This document shows, one piece after another, positions 2,723-38,910 of a DNA stretch of 64,000 bases. Every line of letters starts with the position of its first letter. Position 1 is the first letter of the stretch. Made by a program: the position numbers and the translations under genes. The DNA lies in contig OZ020262.1 in NCBI GenBank assembly GCA_963971285.1, forward strand, positions 10,360,745 through 10,424,744. The letters are read 5' to 3'. The stretch is from Astropecten irregularis (lineage: Eukaryota > Echinodermata > Asteroidea > Paxillosida > Astropectinidae). The notes below the pieces were generated by a model. It was not told the origin of the DNA. It was given only the letters and a program-made list of their open reading frames with translations, and did not search any database.

Positions 2723-4161
2723 CTAGAGGTTGTGTCTGTTGAAAACAGAACACATGGCTTTTCCGCATATGATTCATAAAACAAACTGTCAAATTAATTC
2801 ATATTACTTATTTTGTTTGATAAAGACATGGTTAAATAGAATCCATATTTCAATGTAGAAAACTAAACATTTAACCCATTTGTTGCAGGGTTGATGAAAC
2901 AAATTGCTTGTCAATTAGAATTGTGTCACAGAGAAAGACCTTGCATAACATTGACTTATGGTGAAAGAATCATGATCATAGCTCTTACCACTTTCAAATG
3001 ATATGTTACTTCCTTTTTGACCGGAAGTAGAGGTCACAGGGGTCAACCAATGTGTCACATAGAAAGACCTTGCCTAACATTCACTTTTGGTGAAAGAATT
3101 ATGATCATAGCTTTTACCACTTTTAAATGAGAACCTACTTCCTGTTTGACCGGAAGTAGAGGTCACAGAGGTCAAGCAATGTATCACAAAGAAAGACCCT
3201 GCCTAAAAATCACGTTTGGTGAAAGAATCAACTTAATATCTCAATCCGTTGATTTTCTGTTGATTTTCAAATAAAATACTGACACCACCGCAGTTTCTTG
3301 TTTTAATCCAAAGAGGGCGCCATTCAAAACCGTGTGCTTGCTTCATGCATTACTTGAAAGGTAGATTTTTACGCATGCGTAGTTTTCTTGTCAAAACAGT
3401 ATTTACGCTGGCAACTATGATAAGGAAATGAAGGAGAATACGGCATATATTTAACACAGGCAATCAACCACATGCCCGCGCCTTGCATTTAATGACCAAT
3501 ATTTTTACGTACAAGTCAATGGGCTAACGTGAAAAATATTTTTTTTAAATCATAAAAAATAAAGAAATGACGCTGTCTTGACGTAACTTCATAATTACTA
3601 TTCCAAACCTCCATTTTACCAACCTACCAATTTTCCATGCGATCGGCCGTTCCTACTATGCGTTATAAAAATCGCATTTTTTATGACGTCATGATGACGT
3701 CACCGAATTTTTGTCTATGCAGTGTTCATCTATGGTGTATGCTGAAGAATTATCAAAAGGAAATTCAAAAAAATCTTCTTTCGTTTACTAGATATCGTTA
3801 AAAGAACTTTAATGACCCAAAATTTCAATAAATCATTAAAAATCAGGAAATGACGTCATGATGACGTCATTGCAATTTTTCGATATAACACTTCCCGACT
3901 TAGATACATACCAAGTTTCAACTCAATCGGACTAAGGGTTCGTTCATAATTGATGTCTGAAGTTTGCCCCTTTAAGACACTGTCACGTGACACCTGATGA
4001 CGTCATGACGATGTAAAGTTTCGGCAACCAACTACGCTGTGGGGACTTTGTTTTGACCAAGTTTGATTAAAATCGGCAATTTAAAAGTGGCCAAAGTGGC
4101 ACCGAGAATGCACATGTGCTTTGTCTATAGGAATTCCAACGACAAGAAGAAGAAGAAAAAA
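2723..4161 (-). mobile_element. Helitron-like non-autonomous element E2
   Basis: Minus-strand element whose 3' CTAG is at 2723-2726, preceded by the TGTG/CACA stem-loop and the motif GGCTTTTCC. It contains imperfect ~126 bp sub-repeats at about 2930-3240 that include the ETS-type CCGGAAGT and the AGGTCA pair at 3160-3174. It then has paired TGACGTCA sites at about 3690 and 3850 and one at about 3997. It ends in the AAG-rich tail at about 4141-4160, directly against the next copy. It has no coding frame. Confidence 0.6.
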
Positions 4162-5451
4162 CTAGATATTGTGTCTGTTGAAAACAGAACACATGGCTTT
4201 TCCGTTTTATGATATTAAAATTTTTTCAAAACATTATACACAAAAAAACATTTGATTAAGATATTAAACTTTATACTTTTGGAGAGTGCACCTTTAATCT
4301 GAAGTCACTTGACTTGGTCATGTTTGTGTCACAGGGAAAGACCTTGCCTAACATTTACTTTTGCTGAAAGAATCATGATCCTAGCTCTTACAACTTTTAA
4401 ATGAGGAGCTACTTCCTGTTTGACCGGAAGTAGAGGTCACAGAGGTCAAGCAATGTGACACAAATGAAGGAAATTGCCTAACATTCACGTTTGGTGAAAG
4501 AATCATGATCATAGCTGTAACCACTTTTAAATGAGGAGCTACTTCCTGTTTGACCGGAAGTAGAGGTCACGGAGGTCAAGCAATGTGTCACAAAGAAAGA
4601 CCTTGCCTAACATTGATATTTGGTGAAAGAATCATGATCCTAGCTCTTACCACTTTTAAATGAGGAGCTACTTCCTGTTTGCCCTGTACAAGTCAATGGG
4701 CTATAGCGTGAAAAATATTCAAAAAATCATAAAAAAAAAAAAAATGACGCTGTCTTGATGTAACTTCATAATTACAACCCCGAACCTCCAATTCACCAAT
4801 GTACCAATTTTCAAGGCCATCGGCCGTTCCTACTATGTGTTATAAAAATCACATTTTTTATGACGTCATGATGACGTCACTGAATTTTTGTCTATGCAGT
4901 GTTCATCTATGGTGTATGCTGAAGAATTATCAAAAAGAAATTCAAAGATATCTTGTTTCATTTACTAGATATCATTAAAAGAACTTTAATGACCCAAAAT
5001 TTCAATAAATCATAAAAAATCAGGGAATGACGTCATGATGACGTCATTGCAATTTTTCGATATAACACTTCCCGACTTAGATACATACCAAGTTTCAACT
5101 CAATCAGACATAGGGTTCGTTCATAATTGATGTCTGAAGTTTGCCCCTTTAAGACACTGTCACGTGACACCTGATGACGTCATGATGACGAAAAGTTTCG
5201 GCAACCAACTTCGCTGTGGGGACTTTGTTTTGACCAAGTTTGATTAAAATCGGCAGTTTAAAAGTGGCAAAAGTGGCACCTAGAATGCACATGTGCTTTG
5301 TCTATAGGAATTCATACGACAAGAAGAAGAAGAAGAAAAGAAAAAAAAATCAGAACAAAAACAATACCTTTTCCATTGAACATGGAAAAGCCAAAAAAAA
5401 AATCAGAACAAAAACAATACCTTTTCCGTTGAACACGGAAAAGCCAAAAAA
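4162..5451 (-). mobile_element. Helitron-like non-autonomous element E3
   Basis: Minus-strand copy nearly identical in sequence to the plus-strand units at 9.5-14.16 kb. The 3' CTAG is at 4162-4165. It has ~126 bp sub-repeats at 4320-4680, paired TGACGTCA sites at about 4860 and 5030, one at about 5173, and the AAG tail at about 5320-5337. Two copies of a ~50 bp hairpin unit (5338-5450) lie beyond the tail and abut the CTAG of the next element. The high identity to distant inverted copies suggests recent amplification. Confidence 0.65.
5338..5450. repeat. Two ~50 bp hairpin units
   Basis: Two tandem copies of a unit that contains ATCAGAACAAAAACAATACC and then a hairpin. The first hairpin has arms TTTTCCA and TGGAAAA; the second has TTTTCCG and CGGAAAA, a paired A-T to G-C change that keeps the stem. 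The same unit recurs at 9341-9506 (three copies, inverted) and 11741-11798 (one copy). Confidence 0.7.
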
Positions 5452-9506: not shown

Positions 9507-10686
9507 TCTTTTCTTCTTCTTCTTCTTGTCGTATGAATTCCTATAGACAAAGCACATGTGCATTCTAGGTGCCACTTTTGCCACTTTTAAACTGCCGATT
9601 TTAATCAAACTTGGTCAAAACAAAGTCCCCACAGCGAAGTTGGTTGCCGAAACTTTTCGTCATCATGACGTCATCAGGTGTCACGTGACAGTGTCTTAAA
9701 GGGGCAAACTTCAGACATCAATTATGAACGAACCCTATGTCTGATTGAGTTGAAACTTGGTATGTATCTAAGTCGGGAAGTGTTATATCGAAAAATTGCA
9801 ATGACGTCATCATGACGTCATTCCCTGATTTTTTATGATTTATTGAAATTTTGGGTCATTAAAGTTCTTTTAATGATATCTAGTAAATGAAACAAGATAT
9901 CTTTGAATTTCTTTTTGATAATTCTTCAGCATACACCATAGATGAACACTGCATAGACAAAAATTCAGTGACGTCATCATGACGTCATAAAAAATGTGAT
10001 TTTTATAACACATAGTAGGAACGGCCGATGGCCTTGAAAATTGGTACATTGGTGAATTGGAGGTTCGGGGTTGTAATTATGAAGTTACATCAAGACAGCG
10101 TCATTTTTTTTTTTTTTATGATTTTTTGAATATTTTTCACGCTATAGCCCATTGACTTGTACAGGGCAAACAGGAAGTAGCTCCTCATTTAAAAGTGGTA
10201 AGAGCTAGGATCATGATTCTTTCACCAAATATCAATGTTAGGCAAGGTCTTTCTTTGTGACACATTGCTTGACCTCCGTGACCTCTACTTCCGGTCAAAC
10301 AGGAAGTAGCTCCTCATTTAAAAGTGGTTACAGCTATGATCATGATTCTTTCACCAAACGTGAATGTTAGGCAATTTCCTTCATTTGTGTCACATTGCTT
10401 GACCTCTGTGACCTCTACTTCCGGTCAAACAGGAAGTAGCTCCTCATTTAAAAGTTGTAAGAGCTAGGATCATGATTCTTTCAGCAAAAGTAAATGTTAG
10501 GCAAGGTCTTTCCCTGTGACACAAACATGACCAAGTCAAGTGACTTCAGATTAAAGGTGCACTCTCCAAAAGTATAAAGTTTAATATCTTAATCAAATGT
10601 TTTTTTGTGTATAATGTTTTGAAAAAATTTTAATATCATAAAACGGAAAAGCCATGTGTTCTGTTTTCAACAGACACAATATCTAG
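9507..10686 (+). mobile_element. Helitron-like unit E5 (array copy 1)
   Basis: 1180 bp unit that begins TCTTTTCTTCTTC and ends in a stem-loop followed by ATATCTAG. It contains five TGACGTCA sites (about 9665, then paired at 9800 and 9970), one GTCACGTGAC, and three ~126 bp sub-repeats with TGACCT pairs and CCGGAAGT-type sites on the other strand. It has no coding capacity. Confidence 0.7.
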
Positions 10687-11798: not shown

Positions 11799-12978
11799 TC
11801 TTTTCTTCTTCTTCTTCTTGTCGTATGAATTCCTATAGACAAAGCACATGTGCATTCTAGGTGCCACTTTTGCCACTTTTAAACTGCCGATTTTAATCAA
11901 ACTTGGTCAAAACAAAGTCCCCACAGCGAAGTTGGTTGCCGAAACTTTTCGTCATCATGACGTCATCAGGTGTCACGTGACAGTGTCTTAAAGGGGCAAA
12001 CTTCAGACATCAATTATGAACGAACCCTATGTCTGATTGAGTTGAAACTTGGTATGTATCTAAGTCGGGAAGTGTTATATCGAAAAATTGCAATGACGTC
12101 ATCATGACGTCATTCCCTGATTTTTTATGATTTATTGAAATTTTGGGTCATTAAAGTTCTTTTAATGATATCTAGTAAATGAAACAAGATATCTTTGAAT
12201 TTCTTTTTGATAATTCTTCAGCATACACCATAGATGAACACTGCATAGACAAAAATTCAGTGACGTCATCATGACGTCATAAAAAATGTGATTTTTATAA
12301 CACATAGTAGGAACGGCCGATGGCCTTGAAAATTGGTACATTGGTGAATTGGAGGTTCGGGGTTGTAATTATGAAGTTACATCAAGACAGCGTCATTTTT
12401 TTTTTTTTTATGATTTTTTGAATATTTTTCACGCTATAGCCCATTGACTTGTACAGGGCAAACAGGAAGTAGCTCCTCATTTAAAAGTGGTAAGAGCTAG
12501 GATCATGATTCTTTCACCAAATATCAATGTTAGGCAAGGTCTTTCTTTGTGACACATTGCTTGACCTCCGTGACCTCTACTTCCGGTCAAACAGGAAGTA
12601 GCTCCTCATTTAAAAGTGGTTACAGCTATGATCATGATTCTTTCACCAAAAGTGAATGTTAGGCAATTTCCTTCATTTGTGTCACATTGCTTGACCTCTG
12701 TGACCTCTACTTCCGGTCAAACAGGAAGTAGCTCCTCATTTAAAAGTTGTAAGAGCTAGGATCATGATTCTTTCAGCAAAAGTAAATGTTAGGCAAGGTC
12801 TTTCCCTGTGACACAAACATGACCAAGTCAAGTGACTTCAGATTAAAGGTGCACTCTTCAAAAGTATAAAGTTTAATATCTTAATCAAATGTTTTTTTGT
12901 GTATAATGTTTTGAAAAAATTTTAATATCATAAAACGGAAAAGCCATGTGTTCTGTTTTCAACAGACACAATATCTAG
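11799..12978 (+). mobile_element. Helitron-like unit E7 (array copy 3)
   Basis: 1180 bp copy with the same internal order as E5. Its terminal CTAG at 12975-12978 is followed without any spacer by the TC start of the next unit, so this is an exact head-to-tail junction. Confidence 0.7.
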
Positions 12979-14158
12979 TCTTTTCTTCTTCTTCTTCTTG
13001 TCGTATGAATTCCTATAGACAAAGCACATGTGCATTCTAGGTGCCACTTTTGCCACTTTTAAACTGCCGATTTTAATCAAACTTGGTCAAAACAAAGTCC
13101 CCACAGCGAAGTTGGTTGCCGAAACTTTTCGTCATCATGACGTCATCAGGTGTCACGTGACAGTGTCTTAAAGGGGCAAACTTCAGACATCAATTATGAA
13201 CGAACCCTATGTCTGATTGAGTTGAAACTTGGTATGTATCTAAGTCGGGAAGTGTTATATCGAAAAATTGCAATGACGTCATCATGACGTCATTCCCTGA
13301 TTTTTTATGATTTATTGAAATTTTGGGTCATTAAAGTTCTTTTAATGATATCTAGTAAATGAAACAAGATATCTTTGAATTTCTTTTTGATAATTCTTCA
13401 GCATACACCATAGATGAACACTGCATAGACAAAAATTCAGTGACGTCATCATGACGTCATAAAAAATGTGATTTTTATAACACATAGTAGGAACGGCCGA
13501 TGGCCTTGAAAATTGGTACATTGGTGAATTGGAGGTTCGGGGTTGTAATTATGAAGTTACATCAAGACAGCGTCATTTTTTTTTTTTTTATGATTTTTTG
13601 AATATTTTTCACGCTATAGCCCATTGACTTGTACAGGGCAAACAGGAAGTAGCTCCTCATTTAAAAGTGGTAAGAGCTAGGATCATGATTCTTTCACCAA
13701 ATATCAATGTTAGGCAAGGTCTTTCTTTGTGACACATTGCTTGACCTCCGTGACCTCTACTTCCGGTCAAACAGGAAGTAGCTCCTCATTTAAAAGTGGT
13801 TACAGCTATGATCATGATTCTTTCACCAAACGTGAATGTTAGGCAATTTCCTTCATTTGTGTCACATTGCTTGACCTCTGTGACCTCTACTTCCGGTCAA
13901 ACAGGAAGTAGCTCCTCATTTAAAAGTTGTAAGAGCTAGGATCATGATTCTTTCAGCAAAAGTAAATGTTAGGCAAGGTCTTTCCCTGTGACACAAACAT
14001 GACCAAGTCAAGTGACTTCAGATTAAAGGTGCACTCTCCAAAAGTATAAAGTTTAATATCTTAATCAAATGTTTTTTTGTGTATAATGTTTTGAAAAAAT
14101 TTTAATATCATAAAACGGAAAAGCCATGTGTTCTGTTTTCAACAGACACAATATCTAG
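12979..14158 (+). mobile_element. Helitron-like unit E8 (array copy 4)
   Basis: 1180 bp copy that begins TCTTTTC immediately after the CTAG of E7 and ends CTAG at 14155-14158. Internal content is as in E5, with three sub-repeats and five TGACGTCA sites. Confidence 0.7.
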
Positions 14159-24693: not shown

Positions 24694-26964
24694 TTACAGT
24701 CCTTTCTGGATTATGTTTTGTATCGTGGCGACCAGGGGGCTGTAATTCCTGGCATTGCCAGCCGACGGCTTGCCAGCGCTGAAGACACACCAGTTTCCAC
24801 CTTGACGTGCCAACCAGCCCATGACGATAGCTTGGGAGAAGTTCAGCTTTTTGATGGTGTCTTCACAAAGCATTTTATCTGGGTTGGACTGCTCGTAGAA
24901 CCGCAAGCTGGGGTTGGGGTACTTTGAGATGTTGGGGGAGTCCCAGGCACTCAGAGTGAAGAACAGGTGGGTGGTGGAACTGGGAATGTTGTGCAGCTCC
25001 ACGTTGATAAGGTGGTGTCCCTTTCGCGCATAATCATCCATCAAGTCTCCTGAATGCTTCATGGCAGGTTGGTGTCTGTGACGGTAGTCAAGAACCCCGC
25101 AGAACTTGCTTCCAGCGAAGACCAAGACACTTGCGTCAAGATAATCTCTGCCATGTGCTGGATAGCCCCAGTAGAGATCAAACACAACCTTGTCTAAACC
25201 GGTGGGCACGGAGTACAGGAGCCGTCTGACGTGGATGGTTGTATTTGGCTGAACCTGGTAGTAGCCGAGAGTAGCCTGGGTTTGAGTAGCGGTGTGGTCC
25301 TGATCGAGACATAAGAGATGAAAAGAACAAAAAGAAAATTATGAAAAAGTCTGAATTGTAAGGTCCGCATTACGGTTTGATAATGCTCAATTCCACAAAA
25401 CATCTGAGAGACAACATCATAGCAAGATACTTCACAAAAACCTGCCTCTAGCTAGGAGGCCTACTTAACCACACATAGTTCCTTCTTCGTTTTTGTGCCT
25501 CAGCACCTTACAACCTGTAAGCCTAGCTATCTATTCTAAATCATTCAGTCATCGGGAGGAGGGATTGGAAATCATTTCACCCTTTCACACGCAGATCCAA
25601 CATGGAGCAGCAGGACAATGGCTTGAACAATGTGGGGTATTGTTGTGAGAGTACAGGTGATGATGCATGGTGTCAGTGGCGATGAGGGGAGAATTTAGGG
25701 TAAATAGGGTGGTAGTGGAATGGTGGAGATGGTTCATGGTGAAGGCAGTGGGTTTTTTTTGGATGAATGATCTGACAGAATCTCACATTGAAATTGAAGC
25801 CTAATTTACCTTCATCTCTTTCCCGTTGTATATCAGTTGTTGATTCAGGAGTGGCACTTGGAGCCTGGCTTTGACGGTGTTCCTCAGCTGGGATACCTTC
25901 AGGTTCGGCTCGTAAGCTACACTGGTGCTCTCTCCGTTCAGCATGGCCACGCTGACGTAGCCTCCTCCTGCAGCACATGTCACCTGGACGGGGACAAAGT
26001 TGGGCTCGTACTCGGGAAAGAGCGCCTTGAGCTGGAAGATGCACTCCTTGAGACGACTCGAGTCTGGAGCTATTGCATTCTCACACTGGGAGCACACACC
26101 GTGATGTTCAGCATACGATGTCACGCACTGAAAATAACAATGTAATCACCAAATAACCACTGAATTCTACGTCATTGAAAAGAAAACAAAGAACAATTGA
26201 CTGCAGCAGGGTTCAAACCAGCGACCTCCAGTACATGTGGTAATCAGGAGGTCGCTGGTTCGCATCCCACTCCAGTCAATTTTTCTTTGTTCATTGTTCA
26301 ATGAAAATAACACTGAAATAACAATTGAATATAAACAATTCATCATGAAACTGAAACAAAATGGTTAATCTGATTTTCCATGTACTGAATTAAAACCGAA
26401 GATTACGTTTCACTTTCCATAAAAAAATTAAAATACAATTGCTTGCAAAGTTAATAATATACTGCTGCATATACAGGGTATAGGCCCTACTAGTTCTAGC
26501 TAATACTCCATGAGCTGAGAGTAAGCTTTCTAAATCTAGAAGTAGCCCTACATAGGGGTCAATTTCATAGAGATGCTTAGCACAAAAAATTGCTTAGCAC
26601 AAAAATGTTTTGCCTTTATATAAAAGAAACTACCATTGAAAATTCAATTTGATAATGATGATATTCATGGTCAGCAAACAGCAAAAGAACAATTGCAAGT
26701 GATACACAACACATGGACATTTGGTTCTTAATCCTCTTTTTATTAAAATAGGATAGAAATGTCATGCTTAGCAATTTTTGTGCCAAGCAGCTCTATGATG
26801 AAATTGGCCACAGGGCAGGCAGCACGTTAAAAACCTTGATAATGGCGTCAAGATGGAATACTTACCCGCAAACAGTGAAGGGCAGCATGGTTACACGACT
26901 CAACCAGCGTCCACGATGGGAACTCATTGGAGAGTTTATGGACTCCACACTTTCCACACTTCAT
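24694..26964 (-). CDS. RING - ubiquitin-like - TerD protein (paralogue 1)
   Basis: Exons are 26866-26964 (possibly extended to 26983), 25810-26127 and 24694-25299; the joined frame is open and encodes about 340 residues. Residues 3-48 give a RING-like pattern: CGKC, then C-x-H-x4-C-x2-C across the first splice, then CSQC. Next comes a ubiquitin-like fold that ends in QQLIYNGKEM, with its last strand (TTIHVRRLL) at the start of exon 3. The C-terminal ~175 residues match the TerD/tellurium-resistance family: GYPAHGRDYLDAS, KHSGDLMDD, the SLRFYEQ strand and a final NWCVFSAGKP. RING plus UBL suggests an E3 ligase or ubiquitin-pathway scaffold. TerD domains bind Ca2+ in characterised bacterial proteins. 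The start codon is uncertain because the acceptor upstream leaves the frame open; a 5' exon may exist. The cellular role is unknown. Confidence 0.8.
26184..26292. mobile_element. Hairpin element with tRNA-like T-arm
   Basis: AACAATTGACTG and CAGTCAATTTTTCTTTG are inverted ends, and GGTTCAAACCAGCGACCTCC pairs with GGAGGTCGCTGGTTCGCATC. The second arm looks like the T-arm region of a tRNA. The element is a small snap-back repeat in intron 1 of the RING-UBL-TerD gene. Confidence 0.5.
26558..26815. mobile_element. Family C MITE (CATAGAGCTGCTTAGCAC type), copy 1
   Basis: Left end CAATTTCATAGAGATGCTTA; right end a diverged complement, AAGCAGCTCTATGATGAAAT. The interior contains CACATGGACATTTGG. 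It lies just 3' (on the plus strand) of exon 2 of the neighbouring gene, inside its first intron. Relatives are at 39.8, 40.1 and 43.0 kb. Confidence 0.65.
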
Positions 26965-27955
26965 AGTGCTTTGCCAATGGAGGCTAGTAGTAGTACAAGA
27001 AGGCCTACACTGTTGTTAGATATAGATTTGCACTCTGAAGAATTAATAAATGGCGTAAATGGCCACATGCACACAGCTCACTCCGGTATTTTGGTGACGG
27101 ATTTCTGCAGTAGGCCTACAGTTTTTCAAGATCACCGTGACTTCAACTATCAGTACCTGGTTGTATCGTGGATGCCATGGGTTACTTTCATTGGAAATGA
27201 TGATCGTAGTGCAGTGTACACAGAGTGTCGTATTACGAACGGTGCATATACAATGTGCACTCATACTCGTACTCATCATAGGCGATACATAGCTTCTCTA
27301 TTATTATTTGTCACAATTGGCCTTCCATACTCCTTGCGCAATTTTCCCGTCAAAACTTCCCGGATTAGGCCCCGCCCCCTTATTATAATGAAGTCATTTT
27401 CTGACAGATGTAATTCCCCACAAGAATGAAACTGTTCTGCGCCTGAAATTGGCAGGCTACACAAAATACCGATAAATAAGGGTATCGAGTGTCACCTTTT
27501 GACCTTTGTACCGAGACAGCCTGAGCTAAAAAGAAATACAAGGAAACTGCTCATAATATTACTGCAGTGGAAATCGTTGGGTGATTTCTCACTCATGTAA
27601 TTTCCCATCGAGAACTTGAACATGAAAAACCAATTATGACTCATTATAGTTCTGTTGGTTTTGCTTTGCAATGTCCTGGATTGGTTTTCTGTATTTCAAC
27701 TCTATCTCTGCCAAAACACATTTTACAATTTGGCCTGCAAATTTATGCAGACTTTAATGCACACTTTGGTACAATTACAACAGCATTTATGCCTATATAA
27801 ACAAATTAAATTGCAATTTGAATTACGATTTGTACTATTTCCTTTATTAAATCTATTTTATTTATTAATTAATTACGCTGTGGAGAGCTCTCAGTGCTAT
27901 ATAGTGCAGTGTGATGAAGAAAAATCAGATAATTTCTCACCATATGATACTACCT

Positions 27956-28339
27956 TTAAAGGGATTGCATACGTTTGGTAATTTGAGCCTACTCTTTGTT
28001 TCAAACCAATATAATTGTGTATATATACCATAAAACTAACCTGTGAAAGTTTCACTTCAAAAGGTGGTAGCGTTTTTGAGATTTTGGCGACAAACTAGAG
28101 CGGTTATTTCACGCCAGATAACAGTAAGTCAATAGCTGAGAAGCGTTACGGCCATAACGCTTCTCAGATTCGTAATTTTTGGAGATAAAAAGTGACATAT
28201 TTTTCCATAACTGCGGTACTTCGAATTGAAAGTTTCTCAATATGCATTATACTATCCAAAGCAGCTGTAGTTCTCACCAAGTAAGTTTTTATTGCCATAA
28301 ATTTTCAGAGTCATTACCAAACGTATGCAATGCCTTTAA
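27956..28339. mobile_element. TTAAAGG MITE family B, copy 1
   Basis: Begins TTAAAGGGATTGCATACG and ends CGTATGCAATGCCTTTAA. In the centre a near-perfect palindrome (GAGAAGCGTTACGGCCATAA with its complement) forms a hairpin. It is ~384 bp and non-coding, with one full copy at 34.4 kb and a fragment at 24.4 kb. Confidence 0.8.
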
Positions 28340-28775
28340 GTCAGATTATAAGCATTTTAAAGGGGTTTAATTGCCCCTTTTCTAGCATGTATCAGCATTG
28401 TACACTCGAATAAAAAATAGATATACGAGTAAATTCATGATAGCTTGTAGGACTTTCCCAAAGATCGACATTTAAGGCCTTCTTCACACTTGAGCAAATT
28501 TGGGGTTCACGGTCAAAGTTGTCATGGTATCGTGTGACATCACACCGTGCTCAAAAATTACAAAGTTTTGTCGAAGTGAATATCGGACAGTTTAAGTTTA
28601 GTACAAAATGCAGCTTTAAGGGTTTCTCAGTAAAAATAAACATAAACATACATCCTAAATTGTTTATAATTTAACTACAAAACAAGGTGTCAACTGTATA
28701 TTTTACAGAAAGATTTAGTTCAATGCCCAATAAGACTACAAACAACAATATGGACAAACAGTTTAATAATCAGAC

Positions 28776-28812
28776 CATGGAGGTATAAAAAGGTCCTTTT
28801 TATACCTCCATG
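28776..28812. repeat. Perfect 18 bp-arm hairpin
   Basis: CATGGAGGTATAAAAAGG, one base, then its exact complement CCTTTTTATACCTCCATG. It is probably a minimal snap-back MITE. A looser cousin built on AGGAGGTAGA is at about 17180. Confidence 0.7.
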
Positions 28813-28861
28813 ATGAGACAGACTTACAGACGAATACCATCTTGCTGGAAATAATGAAAAA

Positions 28862-29041
28862 AAAAATTGTGGCAGTGAGTCATGCTGGTGAGCTTGCTTT
28901 TTCCCTCACTTTCTACGAACCACTGTGACTCGGGTTCAAATCCCCACCAGGACCCAAAATTGGTTACCAGCGATCAGTCCCCACCTGACTCAATGATGGT
29001 TTCCTTGGCCTAAACGAGGTCTTAGACTCTTAGACTCTTAT
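28862..29041 (+). mobile_element. SINE-like element with tRNA-type B box
   Basis: Contains GGGTTCAAATCCCC, a good match to the Pol III B box, and ends in a direct repeat CTTAGACTCTTAGACTCTTA that resembles a short SINE tail. The tail stops three bases before the stop codon of the second TerD gene, so the element forms the beginning of that gene's 3' UTR in antisense orientation. Confidence 0.45.
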
Positions 29042-29044
29042 TAA

Positions 29045-31261
29045 TTACATCCCATCTGAAATAATGGCTCCTATTGTCTTGTAAAGAGGTTCATAGTCCT
29101 CAGAGTTGCCAGGCGAAGGCTTGCCGGCGCTGTACACACACCAACGTCCCTGATTCCTGGACAGCCAGCACATCACGATGGCCTGGGCGTTGCTCCTCTT
29201 AGTGATGGTGTCCTCGCACAGCATCTTCCCTGGATCGGACTCCTCGTAGAACCTCAGGCTTGGATTGGGAAACTTGGCGATGGTCGGCGACTCGTAAGAG
29301 CTCAGAGAAAAGAAGATGTGTGTGAAGGAAGCGGGCACCTTGGGCAGGTTGATCGTGATCCTGTGGTGTCCCGTCCTCGTGAAGTTGTTCATCTCATCAC
29401 CCGAGTGTCGCAGAGACTCGTGCGACAACTTCCTGTAGTCCAGGTAATCGACAAGCTGGGTTCCGTTGTAGATGATGGCTGTCGCATCCAGGTAGTCTCT
29501 ACCTTGTTGTGGGTAGCCCCAGCTGAGGTCGAAGACGACCTTCTTGAGGTTATTGTCGGGAGCGGCATATAAGAGACGACGCACATATATGGTAGATGTT
29601 GGCATCAGCTTGTAGAAGCCAAGAGTGGCAGCAGCCTTTCCACTGGTGAATTCCTTCATTGAGGTCAAATGTAAAACAGAAACAAAATGGTGATTAACTA
29701 ATCATCTCCAACTTACTCAAGTTTACTGAGGTAGCAAATTCTGAATCTCCAAACCGAGCATTCAGACAAGGACCTGATTGTCGGGGGGGGGGGGGGGGAT
29801 GTCCCAATAATCGGGGCTTTCCCTAGCAAAAACATAGTGTGGATGCTTTGGGTTTGCTAGGGAAAGTCTTGTTTATCAGGACTTTCTCCAATAACCAGGA
29901 GTAGAACCAAGTTTGAATGCAGAATTAGTCAATGTCTTTGCCCTTGAGCATCCAGAATCCAGAATCCACAGTCTGCACCAGAATCTCTTTTCATTTGAGC
30001 AACTTTAGTCACCCAATTTTGTAAGAATGGACCAATCGGGACATATTTTGTTGTCATACCTTCATTTCCTGTCCATTGTATATCAGTTGCTGACTCTGAG
30101 GTGGCACGCCCAATTCTTTCCTGACGATCTCCCTCAGTTCAGCCACGGTCATGGCCGTGTTAAGCTCCAAGGTGACGCAGTCCCCGTTCAGCATGGCCAC
30201 ACTGATGGGACCTTTCTTCCCGCTGGCACCGACGTCCGTCTGGGGTAGACAGACTGGCTCGTACTCAGTAAACAATGCCCGCAGTTGATCGTAGCAGAGT
30301 TTCAGGTTTTGGACATCGTCACTGACTTTGTTCTCACACTGGGAACACTGCTGATGCTTTTCTGCGTGCTCTGTCACACACTAAAATCAAATTAGGATCA
30401 GAACAAATTTCAAAGTTATCAGCAAAATTTTAATTTTCCACTAAGTATTCAAAAATCATTCTTCTTGTTCATGTTTTTATTTACTTAATTTCCACACAGA
30501 TGGAGAAATTTGTGGAAATTTTGAAATAATCACAAGGAAAACAAATCAGAAATGTCACAACAACATTTTGGCAAAAAAAAACAAAAATGCAGCTCGGATA
30601 TCCATGATGTTGTTTCTTTCCTCAGTGTTTACTTATGGAACAAGATAAAGTGGGGCATAAATATTCAATTTTGGAAAGAATGCTGTTTGTGACTATAATT
30701 TCACTGAAATGTCACAGATTCTAAAAAGTTCTTCATTCATTCAACATGAAGGGGTAGACCTCTTTTTATGACCAAGATAGTTTGAAGTTTTGCAGTGTAT
30801 ATTTTGACAACACCGGCATTCTTCCTGAAAATGCTATTTTGCCGGGTGCCTTACTCTGACTGGCCAATTCATACTCTTAGAATGTACCTCCGGCAAAATA
30901 ACTTTTAGAGAAAGAAGGCCTGCATGACGTATCGAGAATTGGCCAATCAGAAGAATGGCATTGCTGCCAAAATATACGCTAATTCCTTGAAGTTTGAACG
31001 ACCCTTGCCTGGTTGTTGAGGCTCCAAGGAAGAAAGTGGATTTCGGAAACAAGAATTATGGGACAAGTTCGACCAGCATTACCTCAATACCATGAAAAAG
31101 GACTATTTTGTTGTCGATTTTCTCATTGAAATGAATTTCTGAAAGTAGAATAACTTCATTACCCGTAGACAGTGCAGAGCAGCGTGGTTGCACGTTTCCA
31201 GCAAAGTCCATGACGGGAACTCATTGGAGAGTTTGTGAATTCCGCATTTAGCACACCTCAT
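29045..31261 (-). CDS. RING - ubiquitin-like - TerD protein (paralogue 2)
   Basis: Exons are 31163-31261 (or to 31278 if the AATGTCGCC acceptor is used), 30060-30380 and 29045-29653; all junctions are phase 0 and encode about 342 residues. RING ligands are C3, C6, C24, H26, C31, C34, C45 and C48. The ubiquitin-like domain spans roughly 91-163, with QQLIYNGQEM near its end and STIYVRRLL as its last strand across the intron. The TerD-like domain spans about 166-340: GYPQQGRDYLDAT, RHSGDEMNN, a SLRFYEESDPGK strand and RWCVYSAGKP. Exon boundaries are the same as in paralogue 1, so the two arose by tandem duplication. They differ at many positions in every domain, so the event is old. The first coding exon is partly copied just upstream (32093-32203). 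Function is unknown; a ubiquitin-linked stress or immune role is inferred. Confidence 0.8.
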
Positions 31262-31570
31262 GATGGGATGGCGACATTCTAAAGGAATAGAGGAGTTTAC
31301 AAACACCGGAGCTTACATTTTTGCTGTATGCTGAGTATACTGTTGTACGGAGATTGTAGTTTTGCTCTGTGGCACGGCAAATTCGCTGGTTTGCTATTGG
31401 TTTTTGTTTCATTCTATGGGAAAAACTTTAACATTAGACAAGCTTAGATGATGTTTCACCAACGTGGAAGTTATATCGTGACTCTGACAGCTAGCTATAC
31501 TAGTGTCTCCCTCCCAAATTCTCCCTTGTTAGATTTGTTAAAGAAGTGGACGATAATCTCGATAAAATAT

Positions 31571-31804
31571 GCAAATTAGGCTTGCCCTTCACCGACGTGG
31601 ATGAGCGCTGTATACTCAGTGCTTGTGAGAGCACGTGAGAAAAAATCACATGCTTGCTCAGGTGGGATTCGAACCCACGACCTCCTGCTTACTAGTGCAG
31701 ATGCCTTACCTGCTAGGCCACCGAGCTCTTTTTTTCTCACGTGCTCTCACAAGCACTGAGTATACAGTGCTCATCCACGTCGGTGAAGGGCAAGCCTAAT
31801 TTGC
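31571..31804. mobile_element. Hairpin element enclosing a tRNA-Thr-derived cassette, copy 1
   Basis: Long inverted arms (GCAAATTAGGCTTGCCCTTC with its complement, continuing through CACGTGCTCTCACAAGC) flank a ~71 bp tRNA-like core at 31656-31726 on the minus strand. The core has a D-arm-like GTGGCCTAG, an anticodon region CACTAGTAAGCAGG and a T-arm GTGGGTTCGAATCCCAC. It resembles tRNA-Thr(AGU) with one extra loop base and an acceptor mismatch, so it is a derived cassette and not a functional tRNA gene. The arms look like the ends of a MITE. Confidence 0.7.
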
Positions 31805-32492
31805 ATTATATCTATTTCCCGACCAAAGATCATCAATATTCATAATCTCGATAAACTCAATAGTAAATCCAATAACTAAAGAAAGTAATAACTAATATAG
31901 CTAGGCTAATTTAGTAATTGCTCCATGTCAAAATCATTTTTAAAAAGTATTGCATGTTTCAGTTACTGAATCGATTCATAGCGCTATTCATGCTGAATAT
32001 TTGAAGGGCTAGTGCTATGGTAGCTGCAGTAACTGTAAACCTATTACTCCTTAGTCCTTGTTTACAATTGTGACATTGTCGTCAGAATTGTAAGTGCAGA
32101 GCAGCGTGGTTGCACGTTTCCAGCAAAGTCCATGACGGGAACTCATTGGAGAGTTTGTGAATTCCGCATTTAGCACACCTCATGATGGGATGGCGACATT
32201 CTAAAGGAATAGAGGAGTTTACAAACACCGGAGCTTACATTTTTGCTGTATGCTGAGTATACTGTTGTACGGAGATTGTAGTTTTGCTCTGTGGCACGGC
32301 AAATTCGCTGGTTTGCTATTGGTTTTTGTTTCATTCTATGGGAAAAACTTTAACATTAGACAAGCTTAGATGATGTTTCACCAACGTGGAAGTTATATCG
32401 TGACTCTGACAGCTAGCTATACTAGTGTCTCCCTCCCAAATTCTCCCTTGTTAGATTTGTTAAAGAAGTGGACGATAATCTCGATAAAATAT

Positions 32493-32726
32493 GCAAATTA
32501 GGCTTGCCCTTCACCGACGTGGATGAGCGCTGTATACTCAGTGCTTGTGAGAGCACGTGAGAAAAAATCACATGCTTGCTCAGGTGGGATTCGAACCCAC
32601 GACCTCCTGCTTACTAGTGCAGATGCCTTACCTGCTAGGCCACCGAGCTCTTTTTTTCTCACGTGCTCTCACAAGCACTGAGTATACAGCGCTCATCCAC
32701 GTCGGTGAAGGGCAAGCCTAATTTGC
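32493..32726. mobile_element. Hairpin element enclosing a tRNA-Thr-derived cassette, copy 2
   Basis: Second copy of the element at 31571-31804, produced by the 922 bp tandem duplication rather than by new insertion. The tRNA-like core is at 32578-32648 (minus). In this copy the right arm reads AGCGCTC, which restores pairing with the left arm. Confidence 0.7.
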
Positions 32727-33432
32727 ATTATATCTATTTCCCGACCAAAGATCATCAATATTCATAATCTCGATAAACTCAATAGTAAATCCAATAACTA
32801 AAGAAAGTAATAACTAATATAGCTAGGCTAATTTAGTAATTGCTCCATGTCAAAATCATTTTTAAAAAGTATTGCATGTTTCAGTTACTGAATCGATTCA
32901 TAGCGCTATTCATGCTGAATATTTGAAGGGCTAGTGCTATGGTAGCTGCAGTAACTGTAAACCTATTACTCCTTAGTCCTTGTTTACAATTGTGACATTG
33001 TCGTCAGAATTGTAAACAAGAGGCTACAGTAACACTGACAATATTGCTGTTGCATGGCAGGCAGTGCACTGCAGTCAGTCAGTAGTGAAGTCACAAATCG
33101 AGCTGCAATTTATTAATTAATTAAGTAACAACCAATAGTCAATGATGAAATAATGTTTGTTCGTACTCACCCTAAACCATCGACGTAAGTAAGTAGGTTA
33201 GCTAGTGCAGAAGCAATAAGACTTAGGCCTAACGTTAGTGGTATCTGCGACAGGTAAGTTTCGTACAACACATCGAAATATCACATCGTTACTGTCTTGG
33301 GGGATTTCCCTTAATGGCACGCATGCGCGTGTATGTGTCCCAACTTTTCGCTAATGACATAGAGTTAACTCTATGGCTAATGATAAAGACGCCCTCATGA
33401 TGTCAAGCATGTCCAGGCCGTCGGGTTATTAT

Positions 33433-33792
33433 TATCATACTTTGGTTTTACTCAAAGAAATACAGATTCACGGGCAAAAATATCAAAGTAGATACAGTAA
33501 CAGTCATCTGTGAACATTTCAGTCCCATACGATGCCCATTTTTTAGAAAACATTGAAAAACGGCTACAGTATTTCTTTATAGCCTTTTCTCTTTCATTTT
33601 CGATTTTTTAAAAGATCAAAAAGATTTTCAGTCGTTCTTTGTATACTAATTTCTGGATAAATACACCATTTTCAGGTGGACAAAATTTACGGTATCTTCT
33701 ACCACCACCATCTTCATACCCTGTAAGTACGTTATACGTAAATCTGTATGTGCACATTGATGTTTTGGTTTCTTACCAAAGTATGATATACA
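33433..33792. mobile_element. TTAAAGG MITE family A, copy (inverted, left end truncated)
   Basis: Starts ATTATCATACTTTGG and ends TTACCAAAGTATGATA. The interior has the family markers AAAAGATCAAAAAG, GGATAAATACACCATTT and CATACCCTGTAAGTACG. Confidence 0.7.
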
Positions 33793-33942
33793 TGTACATG
33801 TACTACTAAATTAAAGGGGTGTGGGATACCCTGCCCGAGTCGCATCGGGGACAGACAATATTTTTTTCGAATGGAGTTTAAAACTCCGTTTATTCCTAAA
33901 TGAGTTGCATCGGGCCGGGGACAGAAAAATTTAACCCTACCC

Positions 33943-34233
33943 TGAAAACAAATCCTAACGCACTTTAGTAATCATGTACAAACCTATGGACGGAGGCTGG
34001 GAACTTGACCGTATTTTACTAGCTATGCCAAACATAATCAATGACCATTTCATGCGACAGTTTGTCTAAGGTAAACGCAAACCCAATGTGGGTCCACGCA
34101 GGGTATGCGTGAAACAGTTGATGATTATTTTCGGCATAGCCAGTAACATACGGTCAAGTTCCCTGACTTCGTAATATGGTTTGTACATGCGCTCATTGGT
34201 CATTGCTAAAGTGCATGAGGGTTTTTTTTCAGT
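33943..34233. mobile_element. MITE with ~100 bp terminal inverted repeats
   Basis: The left side (CGCACTTTAGTAATCATGTA, then GGGAACTTGACCGTATTTTA) is matched inversely by TACGGTCAAGTTCCCTGAC and GGTTTGTACATGCGCTCATT on the right. Arms are ~100 bp with several mismatches; the element is ~290 bp and non-coding. Confidence 0.65.
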
Positions 34234-34429
34234 GTAGATCTGCCTCTATCTTTAAATACACCATTTAACCATGTGAGGAATACCCTCAGTATCAGTTTCG
34301 GTTTTATTTGTTAGTTGGGACGTAGTAAAGTTCGGGAGAAAGTTAATTAATTAATCTTATTATATTATGTAATTACCAGTATGATAGGTCCTTCGTCCTT
34401 CTGTCTTCAGTAATGTAAATAAGTTATTG

Positions 34430-34812
34430 TTAAAGGCACTGCATACGTTTGGTAATGACTCTGAAAATTTATGGCAATAAAAACTTACTTGGTGAGAAAT
34501 ACAGCTGCTTTGGATAGTATAATGCATATTGAGAAACGTTCAATTCGAAGTACCGCGGTTATGGAAAAATATGTCACTTTTTATCTCCAAAAATTATGAA
34601 TCTGAGAAGCGTTATGGCCGTAACGCTTCTCGGCTATTGACAAACTGTTCTCTGACGTGAAATAACCGCTCTAGTTTGTCGCCAAAATCTCAAAACGCTA
34701 CCACCTTTTGAATTGAAACTTTCACAGGTTAGTTTTATGGTATATATATTCAATTATATTGGTTTGAAACAAACAGTAGGCTCAAATTACCAAACGTATG
34801 CAATCCCTTTAA
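34430..34812. mobile_element. TTAAAGG MITE family B, copy 2
   Basis: Inverted relative to the copy at 27956. It begins TTAAAGGCACTGCATACG and ends CGTATGCAATCCCTTTAA, with the central GAGAAGCGTTATGGCCGTAA palindrome. High identity to the first copy suggests recent spread. Confidence 0.8.
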
Positions 34813-35054
34813 ACAAACGGACGACAAAAGATTTGAACAAAAAACTAAGAAAAGCGACCAGTAGATTACCAGAATGAGTACTCCGAAAAATTCGACCAAC
34901 AAAGGGAATTATGTTTAATTTATGTACTGTATAATAAACAAATCCTGCAACTGGCCAAAAGCGCGCAAACACGTCCACAATACTTATACAAACAAAAAGT
35001 TAGAAATAAATAGTCTATGATCCCAAAGTCCGCTATCATGATGTCCGGCGAACG

Positions 35055-35195
35055 GTACCGGGTCCGATTTCACTAACGCTTTTTGATCATCGCTAAAGCC
35101 CAAATTGATCGCTACGTTGTGTAGCAATTTTCCATTCATAAGCAATGGATTTGGGCTTTAGCGATGATCACAAAACGTTATGATGAAATCGGCCA
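35055..35195. mobile_element. Palindromic short MITE
   Basis: GGTCCGATTTCACTAACGCT and its near-complement ACGTTATGATGAAATCGGCC bracket the paired blocks GATCATCGCTAAAGCCCAAA and GGGCTTTAGCGATGATC, so almost the whole element folds on itself. Confidence 0.7.
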
Positions 35196-35442
35196 ATCTG
35201 CTTCAATTTCCGCCAGCGCCACAAGAGCCCAAACTCATGCAGTGACTCGGTCAAAATGAACTTCCTTTTATTGTTTATTATACGATTCTGATCACCGTAC
35301 AACGGGTTGGACTAAATTTGTTTCCACCGTAATATACCTAGAAAGTATACCATTATTAATGTTTCATGTTGATAATGACTAATGTTTTGACTTTGAAGCT
35401 GGCGTGTTCCTTAAATGCCACTTTGTAGTGCCCGGATAATCC

Positions 35443-35807
35443 TTAAAGGCAGCGTACAGGATTTGCAAGGCCTCCAACAGTTCGCAAACAGTGCAAACAG
35501 TCACCATGGGAAATCTTGGTTCGTCACATGCTGGGTTTTTCAAGGAAATCGAGATTTAGTGTTTTTAAAAAGATCGTTTGTCCGAACGATTTATATAAGG
35601 GCCTAGTAAAGCGAAAGCGTGGTGTAACCGTGAAGGATTCGGAGGGGGGGATGTCAAGATTTATATTTCGGCCGTATTTCTGCTATCCAGATGAACAAAG
35701 CGTAAAAAGGTACATGAAACAACGTCTGTAAGGAATTTTAAGACCTTCACTTCTGTTTAAGTTCCAAGCTCAGCCAAAACGCACATCTTTGCAAATGCTC
35801 CCTTTAA
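35443..35807 (+). mobile_element. TTAAAGG element family F, copy 1
   Basis: Starts TTAAAGGCAGCGTACAGG and ends GCAAATGCTCCCTTTAA. It contains a short frame that ends in YFCYPDEQSVKRYMKQRL and a stop; the same ending is present in the inverted copy at 44442-44840. The rest of the frame is not well conserved, so coding is doubtful. Confidence 0.65.
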
Positions 35808-35840
35808 TAGTTCCGCTTCATTTCTTTTCCAGAGTCTGAA

Positions 35841-35908
35841 CATGAGCATGAGCATGAGCATGAGCATGAGCCTAAGCCTAAGCCTAAGCCTGAGCCTGAG
35901 CTGCGTTC
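35841..35908. repeat. GAGCAT/GAGCCT hexanucleotide array
   Basis: About eleven hexamers drift from GAGCAT through CCTAAG to CCTGAG, directly 3' of the Myb/SANT gene's stop codon. They are probably derived from the GGCTCA-type MITE ends seen elsewhere. Confidence 0.75.
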
Positions 35909-35932
35909 GTAAAGGCCTAAAGGGTGTCTCAT

Positions 35933-37920
35933 TTAGCTCTGGCTGCCGTGTCGAGGTAGAGAGTTCATCTTCAGTCTTCGATATCTTCTCTTCTCTTCCA
36001 TCACTTGCATCTCGAGACGGTGCCGTTGTCTCGTCTGTTCTCGCATCTCCCGGGCCAGTTCTCGTTGCTCGTGAGCTGTCTCCATCTGGATCGTCAGCAG
36101 CGCCATCTTGGCCTCGTGTTCGTTGCGCGCGTAATCCATCGCCGTCCAATGGCCGGCGTTGGTGGCGCTAGCACTGCCATCGGCCGCGTTGCTGCTGCCA
36201 GCTTCCGCCAGGCCTGCGACTGTTTCGTGTGTGAAATCCTTGTCGTTCACGCAGCGAAATACATCCCCTGTGACGGATACGGAAATCCAAACATCATGAA
36301 TCAGTCACATCATAATCTCAACCCATTGTTGGACAATATTTTATCAAAGAATATACATGATTATCCATGCCGAATTCCTGGTTCGGCTTACCACATAATC
36401 CGAAGCTTACCATTATGATTATTCCCTAATACATTATTGGTAAGCAGTAAGTTATATGATCCGCTTGCCGCGCTGAGTACGCGAACAAACTGGCTTATAC
36501 AAGGTGCAGGCCAACAATAGTATTTAAGCTGAAGATTCCTTGCTTATCTATGAGAATGACTCCAATAATAAGCCTCGTTAATTGCTTTTAGTTGGAAAGC
36601 TCTGATTCTATAAGCTCAGTACGGTATAAGCTTTACGGTGAGGCCGTTCCTTCTTCCGTGACTTTAGCAAAGCCATAACTACATCATTCATGCCCTTGGG
36701 TATAAGTTCACAAAAGGCCAAGATTGAAATCGTATTAAAGGTAGTATCATACTTTGGTTTTTGTCAAAGAAATACAGATTCCTGGGCAAAAATATCAAGG
36801 AAGATACAGTCACAGTCATCTGTGAAAATGTCACTCCCATATTGTGCCCACTTTTTGAGAAACCGTGAAAAACGGCCACAGTATTTCTTAAGTCTTTTCT
36901 CTTTTATTGTTGATCTTTTAAAAGATCAAAAAGATTTTCGGTCGTTGTTTTACTAATTTCTGGATAAATAAACCATTTCAGGCGGAAAAATGTTAACGGT
37001 ATATGTTTCTACCACCGTGCACCATCTTAAGTTCATACCCTGTAAGTTATACGTAAATCTTCTTTTTGGTTTCTTACCAAAGTATGATACTACCTTTAAC
37101 CAAACATCTTATCAATCGGGTGACGTCACAACAGACGTTACTATGGTGATATTGACAAAAACTCATCTAAATCGTGAATAGCTTTGTGAAATCGAGCACA
37201 GGCTGGCCTGATAAAATAGCTGTCTTGAGATAAAAGCAAGATCGAGGACTCTGGAGTAGTTTCATTGTTGAGCAAATTGTATGCATAATCCAATAATTAT
37301 ACCGTACCCATTTCTTCATCATCCGAGTTGATAAGATCTACTTCATCTTCAAAGTCTCCTCCTCCAGCATCACCGTTACCATGGTACCCCTCTGCCTCAT
37401 CATCAACATCATCATCACCCAACGATGCCTCCAGGAGAACCGGTTGATGGTCCCCGCCCCCAAAATGAAAGGAAGAGGAGGAGGAAGAAGCTGGTTCGTC
37501 CTTGATAAGAGCATCTGGAAGTGGAGGTGGACTATTTGTGGCATCGGGACAACCCTGAGCTGGGTTGACGTCCCTCTGGGGTGACACCGTGCGTGGGGCT
37601 GGGTGATGGGCAGGCCCGGTGAAGCTCCGCGCCCGGGACGCTGCCTGCGGTAGCGTGACCGCTGCGTACCCGGTGTTGCTAGCCGACTTCTTGGCTCGCA
37701 TCTTCAAGTTGTTCCAGTACTTGCGAAGCTGGCGGTGCGTTCGCCTGACCACGAGACGCTCGGCGTTGAACCGGGCCACGATCCTGGCCCAGGCTTTGTC
37801 CTTCTGCCGTACCGTCACGGAGTCGTTCTTCTTGGACTCGACGATCTCAATGTCCTCCTCGATCAGACGGAGGAGAACGTTCCTCTCAATCACGGAGAAA
37901 TTGAGTCTTTTAGTAGACAT
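35933..37920 (-). CDS. Myb/SANT-like DNA-binding protein, MSANTD3-like
   Basis: Two exons, 37308-37920 and 35933-36267, join in phase 1 through a GTACGG donor and a CACAG acceptor; the product is 315 aa. Residues about 6-80 form a Myb/SANT-like domain (Myb_DNA-bind_5 type) with conserved aromatic and basic positions: NFSVIERNVLLRLIEED, KAWARIVARFN, RRTHRQLRKYWNNLK. The middle is low-complexity (Pro/Ser/Gly, then an acidic DDD/DEE tract). The end is a long charged coiled coil (HEAKMALLTIQMETAHEQRE, then REQTRQRHRLEMQV). That order matches the MSANTD3 family: SANT domain, acidic linker, C-terminal coiled coil. A nuclear DNA-binding role is expected from the family. The single intron holds a family A MITE, and the end of exon 1 is duplicated in inverted orientation at 39 kb. 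Confidence 0.8.
36735..37099. mobile_element. TTAAAGG MITE family A, copy in the Myb/SANT intron
   Basis: TTAAAGGTAGTATCATACTT at the left and AAGTATGATACTACCTTTAA at the right. It belongs to the segment that was copied in inverse at 39.0-39.67 kb. Confidence 0.8.
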
Positions 37921-38910
37921 GGTGATGCTCACTCCCCTGACACGGTTGGCCTTAGGTCGTGTTGAATTCTGAGCCCGAGTAGGACGGCCAACTCAATGAG
38001 CAAAATCTCTTTCTACAAATTCACTTTCCTTCCTCCACGCTCAAAATAACGCCAGGCTTTATATTATTGTATCAATACTATTGTATCAATATAAAACATG
38101 ACAGGCCTTCGATGGAAATGCAAATTTTACATTGCTTTTTAATGGCGTACAGTGTAGTGAATTATACCATGGGTTCCTTCCTCCATGATTATACTAGTTA
38201 GACCTTGTGATGTTCAGTTGAGTTCCGTGTGTCTGTAGCTGTACTGCGCGTGATATACACGGCATATGCGGGTAGCGTACGTACAAAAATAATGTACAGT
38301 ATTTTCCATTAGCATTCAGTACATGCCTAACCAAGGTTGACCTTTTGTGAGCTGGCTTTACGCCTCGCTGGTGACCGGCCTCGAGCACAGCTACACACAC
38401 GGGCTGTGCATGCACTGCCATGTGATGTGAGTGTGACAGGGTACCGGCGATGATCAGGCATTATGGCTCATCTCAAGTGGCATTGCATTATAATTTTACG
38501 CACGACTCAAAGTACGTGGCCTACTCAATATTCAACCGCACACAGTAGCTTACCCGAGCGGCAACTCATCATACAGCCATATAGAACAGAGAATTTTGCG
38601 GTGTCGAGTCGACCTTTCAACCAAAGACTGACACTGAAGTAGGCCCCAAACCCCAATAGCCCTACTCAGTCATAATTATGTAAATGTAGTCGACCATTTC
38701 GGTGACTCAGGCTGTTTTCGGTGCCCGTGGCGTGAGACCATGCTCGAATTTAGACGATTGAACAAACTGCCCATCAGGCAGAATAAATAAATGACCTGAA
38801 ATTTATAAAATGCTTAGAAGTTAAGAGGGCCTGACATGCTTCAATCCTAGCAGGATCTTCAAGGCTCAGTAAAATTGCCTTCGATAAGAATCACAGGATC
38901 GAAACCGCGT
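37921..38910. other. Upstream region of the Myb/SANT gene
   Basis: No coding region was recognised. A hammerhead-like or Penelope-type fragment may lie at about 38810-38882 on the minus strand (GAAGATCCTGCTAGGATTGA). The rest is non-repetitive and presumably includes the promoter of the minus-strand gene; no clear TATA box was seen. Confidence 0.4.

Follow-up and report, generated by a model that had tools for sequence, protein, structure and literature searches.

Does an animal gene really carry TerD, a domain found widely in the stress and phage-defence systems of bacteria, and if so, what could it do next to modules of the ubiquitin system? This question is raised by a stretch of 64,000 nucleotides (nt) from the sea star Astropecten irregularis (GenBank assembly GCA_963971285.1, contig OZ020262.1, positions 10,360,745 to 10,424,744; hereafter the window). 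An earlier note, made from the letters alone, had described two tandem genes fusing a RING finger, a ubiquitin-like domain, and a TerD domain, and had proposed a ligase or scaffold whose specificity or Ca2+ sensing comes from TerD. The two genes, here called A and B, are arranged head to tail on the minus strand, with start and stop codons located, and in both a TerD domain is indeed joined to a ubiquitin-like domain within the same exon layout. The RING and the calcium parts of the proposal fared less well, as set out below.

The TerD assignment was confirmed. The Pfam model PF02342 (cut-off 25.3 bits) scored 36.9 bits in B (expectation value E 3.2e-9) and 25.5 bits in A (E 1e-5), the latter being marginal if taken alone. 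A profile search was run with exon 3 against 177,635 distinct sequences of the Protein Data Bank (PDB) and returned four rows at E up to 10; the only ones below E 0.001 were the TerD entries 3ibz (E 1.1e-7) and 2kxt (E 2.2e-4), the other two rows being non-significant (0.87 and 1.3). Scored with a profile built from 212 different bacterial TerD rows (collapsed from 247 domains), B reached 50.3 bits and A 33.5 bits, whereas 120 shuffled sequences did not exceed 1.7 bits. The animal profile in turn matched 31 of 31 bacterial genomes searched, all of which had been chosen as TerD carriers. As an aside, the PHROGs family phrog_5698 (listed function unknown) matches the animal TerD exons with E 2.8e-10 and 2.6e-12, and this phage family is therefore probably a TerD family; PADLOC assigned no family.

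The ubiquitin-like domain was also borne out, PF00240 (cut-off 25.4 bits) scoring 40.8 bits in A (E 1.9e-10) and 34.3 bits in B (E 2.1e-8). Residues 92-163 of the gene B product align to ubiquitin, with Leu and Ile at the positions of ubiquitin Leu8 and Ile44, and the domain straddles the border of exons 2 and 3. A C-terminal Gly-Gly for conjugation is absent; the domain ends with RRLLYS or RRLLYA and the chain passes into TerD, which indicates a built-in domain and not a modifier.

Each gene consists of three exons (99, 318, and 606 nt in A; 99, 321, and 609 nt in B), and the predicted products of 340 (A) and 342 (B) amino acids are 56-57% identical to each other. Both introns of each gene are in phase 0 and lie at matching places, in agreement with the earlier note, the outer bounds of which were exact: position 24694 is the final base of the gene A stop codon and 31261 the first base of the gene B ATG. 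All four introns are bordered by GT and AG, and both genes have an upstream in-frame stop, without any ATG further 5′; the pyrimidine tract at the acceptor of gene B exon 3 is weak. The features are as follows.

26866..26964, minus strand: gene A exon 1 (99 nt), with the ATG and the first half of the RING-like Cys/His module; donor GTAAGT.
25810..26127, minus strand: gene A exon 2 (318 nt), with the second half of the RING-like module, a linker, and most of the ubiquitin-like domain (PF00240 E 9.8e-7 for the exon alone).
24694..25299, minus strand: gene A exon 3 (606 nt including the stop), with the final strands of the ubiquitin-like domain, then TerD.
26077..26127, minus strand: gene A RING-like module, exon 2 part, residues 34-50 (Cys/His ligands; no significant RING model).
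25810..25953, minus strand: gene A ubiquitin-like domain, exon 2 part, from residue 92 (PF00240 residues 92-163, E 1.9e-10).
25228..25299, minus strand: gene A ubiquitin-like domain, exon 3 part, to residue 163 (PF00240).
24766..25203, minus strand: gene A TerD domain, residues 172-317 (PF02342 E 1e-5; E 8.0e-4 in the genome search).
31163..31261, minus strand: gene B exon 1 (99 nt), with the ATG and the first half of the RING-like module; donor GTAATG.
30060..30380, minus strand: gene B exon 2 (321 nt), with the second half of the RING-like module, a linker, and most of the ubiquitin-like domain (PF00240 E 3.3e-8 for the exon alone).
29045..29653, minus strand: gene B exon 3 (609 nt including the stop), with the final strands of the ubiquitin-like domain, then TerD.
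30330..30380, minus strand: gene B RING-like module, exon 2 part, residues 34-50 (Cys/His ligands; no significant RING model).
30060..30206, minus strand: gene B ubiquitin-like domain, exon 2 part, from residue 92 (PF00240; residues 92-163 aligned to ubiquitin).
29585..29653, minus strand: gene B ubiquitin-like domain, exon 3 part, to residue 163, without C-terminal Gly-Gly (from the sequence and the ubiquitin alignment).
29120..29557, minus strand: gene B TerD domain, residues 173-318 (PF02342 E 3.2e-9; E 2.5e-7 in the genome search).
32093..32183, minus strand: truncated duplicate of gene B exon 1 that lacks the splice donor, within copy two of a tandem duplication of 922 bp.

The ubiquitin-like and TerD domains are under purifying selection in both copies. 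Codon differences between A and B fall on 124 first, 88 second, and 179 third positions, corresponding to 0.37 nonsynonymous (dN) and about 1.97 synonymous (dS) changes per site and a dN/dS of about 0.19, a value that is rough because dS is near saturation. Identical residues amount to 40 of 50 in the RING-like module, 17 of 39 in the linker, 37 of 77 in the ubiquitin-like domain, and 97 of 174 in TerD (191 of 340 overall), the first 50 residues being the best-conserved segment (dN 0.13 versus 0.37 overall). Bacterial contamination, or decay into functionless copies, had to be considered, since TerD is a bacterial family and the assembly contains a bacterial-looking contig, but either is highly improbable: the genes are spliced, encode a ubiquitin-like domain, and lie 10.4 Mb into a contig (C27), their frames are open, the dN/dS is low, and only the exon 1 fragment (32093-32183) looks dead. 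The bacterial-looking contig itself (C131, 102,890 bp; region 28000-37999) carries intron-free cytochrome oxidase genes, with a COX1 of 552 amino acids, and looks like that of a contaminant or symbiont. A partial COX1 copy with seven TGA codons on a large contig (C25:9951047-9952018) is probably a nuclear copy of mitochondrial DNA. Contig C168 (16,335 bp) is mitochondrial; its COX1 has an open frame under three of four genetic codes tried (5, 9, and 13), of which code 9 alone yields the typical Asn and Ile (NHKDIG). This indicates an echinoderm; flatworms use code 9 as well.

No TerD copies beyond genes A and B were found by exon-wise search of the 475.7-Mb assembly. A search of the assembly with the full-length protein returned 35 places, 7 in the window and 28 in a polyubiquitin array; in this less sensitive search, no other genes with the RING-like module were detected. 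The 922-bp tandem duplication (31171-32092 and 32093-33014; 921 of 922 positions identical) spans the beginning of gene B plus the sequence upstream of it; in its second copy, exon 1 lacks its end and donor. It is either very recent or an assembly artefact. Two tRNA-like stretches (31654-31727 and 32576-32649; ARAGORN, anticodon not called) with flanking inverted arms of 77 bp are probably a tRNA-derived short interspersed element.

The N-terminal module had been described as a C3HC4-like RING, and the part of this description that stood is the set of ligands. Residues 1-50 contain eight Cys/His ligands (C3, C6, C24, H26, C31, C34, C45, and C48; intron 1 falls between R33 and C34), which are invariant between A and B and RING-like in number and order; H9, H30, and H42 are conserved, too. 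A match to a RING family was not confirmed. The ligand spacing is C-x2-C-x17-C-x-H-x4-C-x2-C-x10-C-x2-C, and the strict RING pattern, C-x2-C-x(9-39)-C-x(1-3)-H-x(2-3)-[CH]-x2-C-x(4-48)-C-x2-C, is missed because H-x4-C is one residue too long (it is matched if x4 is allowed). Several further results weigh, together with this one, against a RING. No RING model was significant, the best being zf-RING_5 for A (E 0.62) and zf-RING_2 for B (E 2.4), and zinc-ribbon models equalled or surpassed them (DZR_2 with E 0.31 for A; Zn_ribbon_3 with E 0.089 for B). The PDB profile search with the module returned two rows (E 0.097 and 1), neither of them a RING, and none of the six matches of Prok-RING_4 in the assembly was on contig C27. 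Active RINGs often carry C-P-x-C and, following the last Cys, a basic residue (the "linchpin"); the corresponding stretch in both proteins is CSQCEN, with neither the Pro nor the basic residue. In viral contigs, the profile of the module had no relative. Judged by its ligands, the module is thus RING-like, and its identity as a RING plausible.

The same results bear on the view that the proteins are non-catalytic adaptors or shuttles, in which the zinc module would only hold the fold or a dimer, the ubiquitin-like domain would dock on the proteasome or on ubiquitin receptors, and TerD would bring the cargo. The non-significant RING models, zinc-ribbon models that fit as well as or better than these, the CSQCEN motif, and a clear ubiquitin-like domain speak for it, but a ligand order like that of a RING, in the best-conserved segment of the whole chain, would be odd for a mere spacer; we regard this explanation as possible, if somewhat doubtful.

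Whether TerD could sense calcium was judged from its acidic pocket. GDDE-type loops, which we take to be the Ca2+-binding residues in the Klebsiella protein KP-TerD, are not present in the animal domain. Nine alignment columns are at least 85% acidic in the 212 bacterial TerD domains, and two of them are kept in both paralogs (D56 and D86, exon 3 numbering), the other seven being lost. Where bacteria have the run D/E, G, D, D, E, gene B reads R-T-G-H-H and gene A R-K-G-H-H, the GDDE loop thus being TGHHR and KGHHL, respectively. D69, in a column with 76% Asp, is kept in B and is Gly in A. Because the alignment is gapped around Y54-L55-D56, D53 may lie close to where the DLD motif has its first Asp. 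The bacterial loci had been fetched with patterns containing H[TSQ]GDN and Q[TS]F..V.NA, so conservation in the pattern columns is inflated; the GDDE columns are outside these patterns. An acidic Ca2+ pocket is a functional feature, and homology to TerD does not need it. As far as the residues can tell, the calcium pocket appears to be eroded in both copies, i.e., lost or rebuilt, and recognition is therefore probably not Ca2+-gated in the bacterial manner. A Ca2+-regulated ligase or scaffold, in which calcium sensed by TerD would switch the ubiquitin modules, as the earlier note had proposed, could draw on the fact that the domain is TerD and that KP-TerD binds Ca2+ (a passage in PMC8123226 citing Pan et al. 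2011). With seven of nine acidic columns lost, and D69 present in only one paralog, it is nevertheless improbable.

Two other ligands deserve consideration. Both paralogs read HSGD and then GHH where bacteria show H-T/S-GDN and GDDE (in B: H223, D226, H236, and H237, with D196). Speculatively, the TerD pocket of an animal ubiquitin ligase might have been rebuilt as a His-rich site that binds a transition metal or other ligand and steers ubiquitination of stress-damaged or foreign proteins. We consider this unlikely; if true, a bacterial stress sensor would have been rewired into the animal ubiquitin system. Alternatively, TerD could be a sensor of a nucleotide-type ligand coupled to ubiquitin signalling, as proposed for CapA and CapB of Dictyostelium. 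These are described as binding cyclic AMP (cAMP) and as having a C-terminal half derived from a bacterial tellurium-resistance subunit (passage in PMC3188802), and TerD is listed among domains possibly recognising nucleotide derivatives (passage in PMC7159879), but nothing in the sequence of genes A and B points to nucleotide binding, and we give this explanation a low probability.

The reading that we prefer, tentatively, is that the paralogs are soluble proteins of the ubiquitin system, either similar to ubiquitin ligases (E3) or adaptors, with TerD as the recognition part. From the matched domains, we infer every functional step, and ubiquitin signalling is where the proteins most likely work. 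The Cys/His module would coordinate two zinc ions in an atypical RING fold and would bind either a ubiquitin-conjugating enzyme (E2) or another E3 as its partner. The ubiquitin-like domain might dock on the proteasome or on ubiquitin receptors, or else restrain the Cys/His module, and the β-sandwich of TerD would choose a protein, a nucleotide-like ligand, or a damaged substrate. The role of TerD is uncertain even in bacteria, which counts against this reading, as do the non-significant RING models, the missing features of active RINGs, and the roughness of dN/dS.

The best pairwise identity of B to any of the 212 bacterial TerD domains is 27.9%. In a tree of 34 rows (filtering at 62% identity gave 38, and the 4 rows of the SCO0854 family were then removed), the animal pair fell into the half with TerZ-like SFxGQTF domains; its branch measures 3.19 changes per site, and neither its exact place nor a bacterial donor was resolved. 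Recent transfer from a sampled bacterium was not supported, all tblastn matches being below 60% identity (2421 plasmid records and 14 phage records; E limit 1), and the patterns of the exon 3 profile revealed no relative in viral contigs or genome contigs. Low identity and the very long branch indicate that TerD is old or fast-evolving in the lineage. Exon-by-exon search of the assembly gave no match for TerB (PF05099) or TerC (PF03741), and a complex of the bacterial ter type is therefore unlikely.

Descent from a bacterial family that already combines a RING with a TerD-like domain was considered as well. This MXAN_6230/SCO0854 family was reached through a weak match of gene A exon 3 to the NCBIfam model NF041916 (E 0.05, 11.7 bits; cut-off 600 bits), which gene B exon 3 did not match. 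Among four family proteins scanned, three contain Prok-RING_4 (PF14447; E 1.7e-6, 1.4e-19, and 1.3e-19), the one from Deinococcus being without it. Pfam TerD was found in none of the four at E up to 1, and the bacterial TerD profile scored all four with 26.7-31.4 bits, versus at most 1.7 bits for shuffles. Several relatives are labelled "TerD family protein" in plasmid annotation. From these profile scores and annotations, it follows that a RING plus TerD-like pairing exists in bacteria. Direct links to the animal genes are weak, namely the above match with E 0.05 and an hhalign probability of 0.4% between animal exon 3 and a Streptomyces family member; hence, the family is retained as an analogue only.

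The remainder of the window contains, on the minus strand, an exon with a Myb/SANT-like DNA-binding domain (37300-37992; PF13873, E 4.3e-17) and exons of a gene with a phosphotyrosine-interaction domain (63218-64000; PF00640, E 6e-11), which extends past the window end. A tandem repeat of ~130 bp occurs in five arrays in both orientations (2922-3230, 4325-4681, 10167-10523, 12459-12815, and 13639-13995).

In the open-licence literature searched, no description of an animal TerD gene was found. The 2012 work of Anantharaman, Iyer and Aravind on ter systems may mention eukaryotic TerD fusions. Annotated animal genomes may already contain the RING-like/ubiquitin-like/TerD architecture without its having been noticed, which is why our claim to novelty is kept moderate. 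Two eukaryotic copies under selection tie TerD to ubiquitin modules, and their animal partners or ubiquitination targets could reveal the ligand of TerD. They would, moreover, be a further example of ubiquitin signalling taking up a stress domain from bacteria, which themselves have a comparable pairing of RING and TerD-like domain.

Compared with the bacterial TerD family (PF02342; 3ibz and 2kxt; TerZ, TerD, and TerE of ter operons), the animal domain is the same by Pfam, by the PDB profile, and by the bacterial profile, its best matches being of the kind that carries SFxGQTF. It differs in that the end of the ubiquitin-like domain overlaps its first strand or takes that strand's place, its acidic pocket is largely lost, modules of eukaryotic type are fused to it, and neither TerB nor TerC turned up in the assembly. 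CapA and CapB, likened here by description, are eukaryotic and share the C-terminal TerD-type half; they are described as cAMP-binding, and the description in PMC3188802 does not mention modules of the ubiquitin system. Proteins of the MXAN_6230/SCO0854 family, comparable to the animal genes with their RING-like module, combine a RING, which comes first, and a TerD-like domain in one chain, but they are 740-920 amino acids long with a long helical-looking middle, Pfam reports no ubiquitin-like domain in them, and their RING is, as far as tested, of a different family from the animal module. Parkin and HOIL-1 begin with a ubiquitin-like domain, which is followed by a RING-between-RING (RBR) unit. 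Such E3s resemble the animal genes in combining an in-chain ubiquitin-like domain with zinc modules, whereas the animal proteins begin with the RING-like module and end with TerD.

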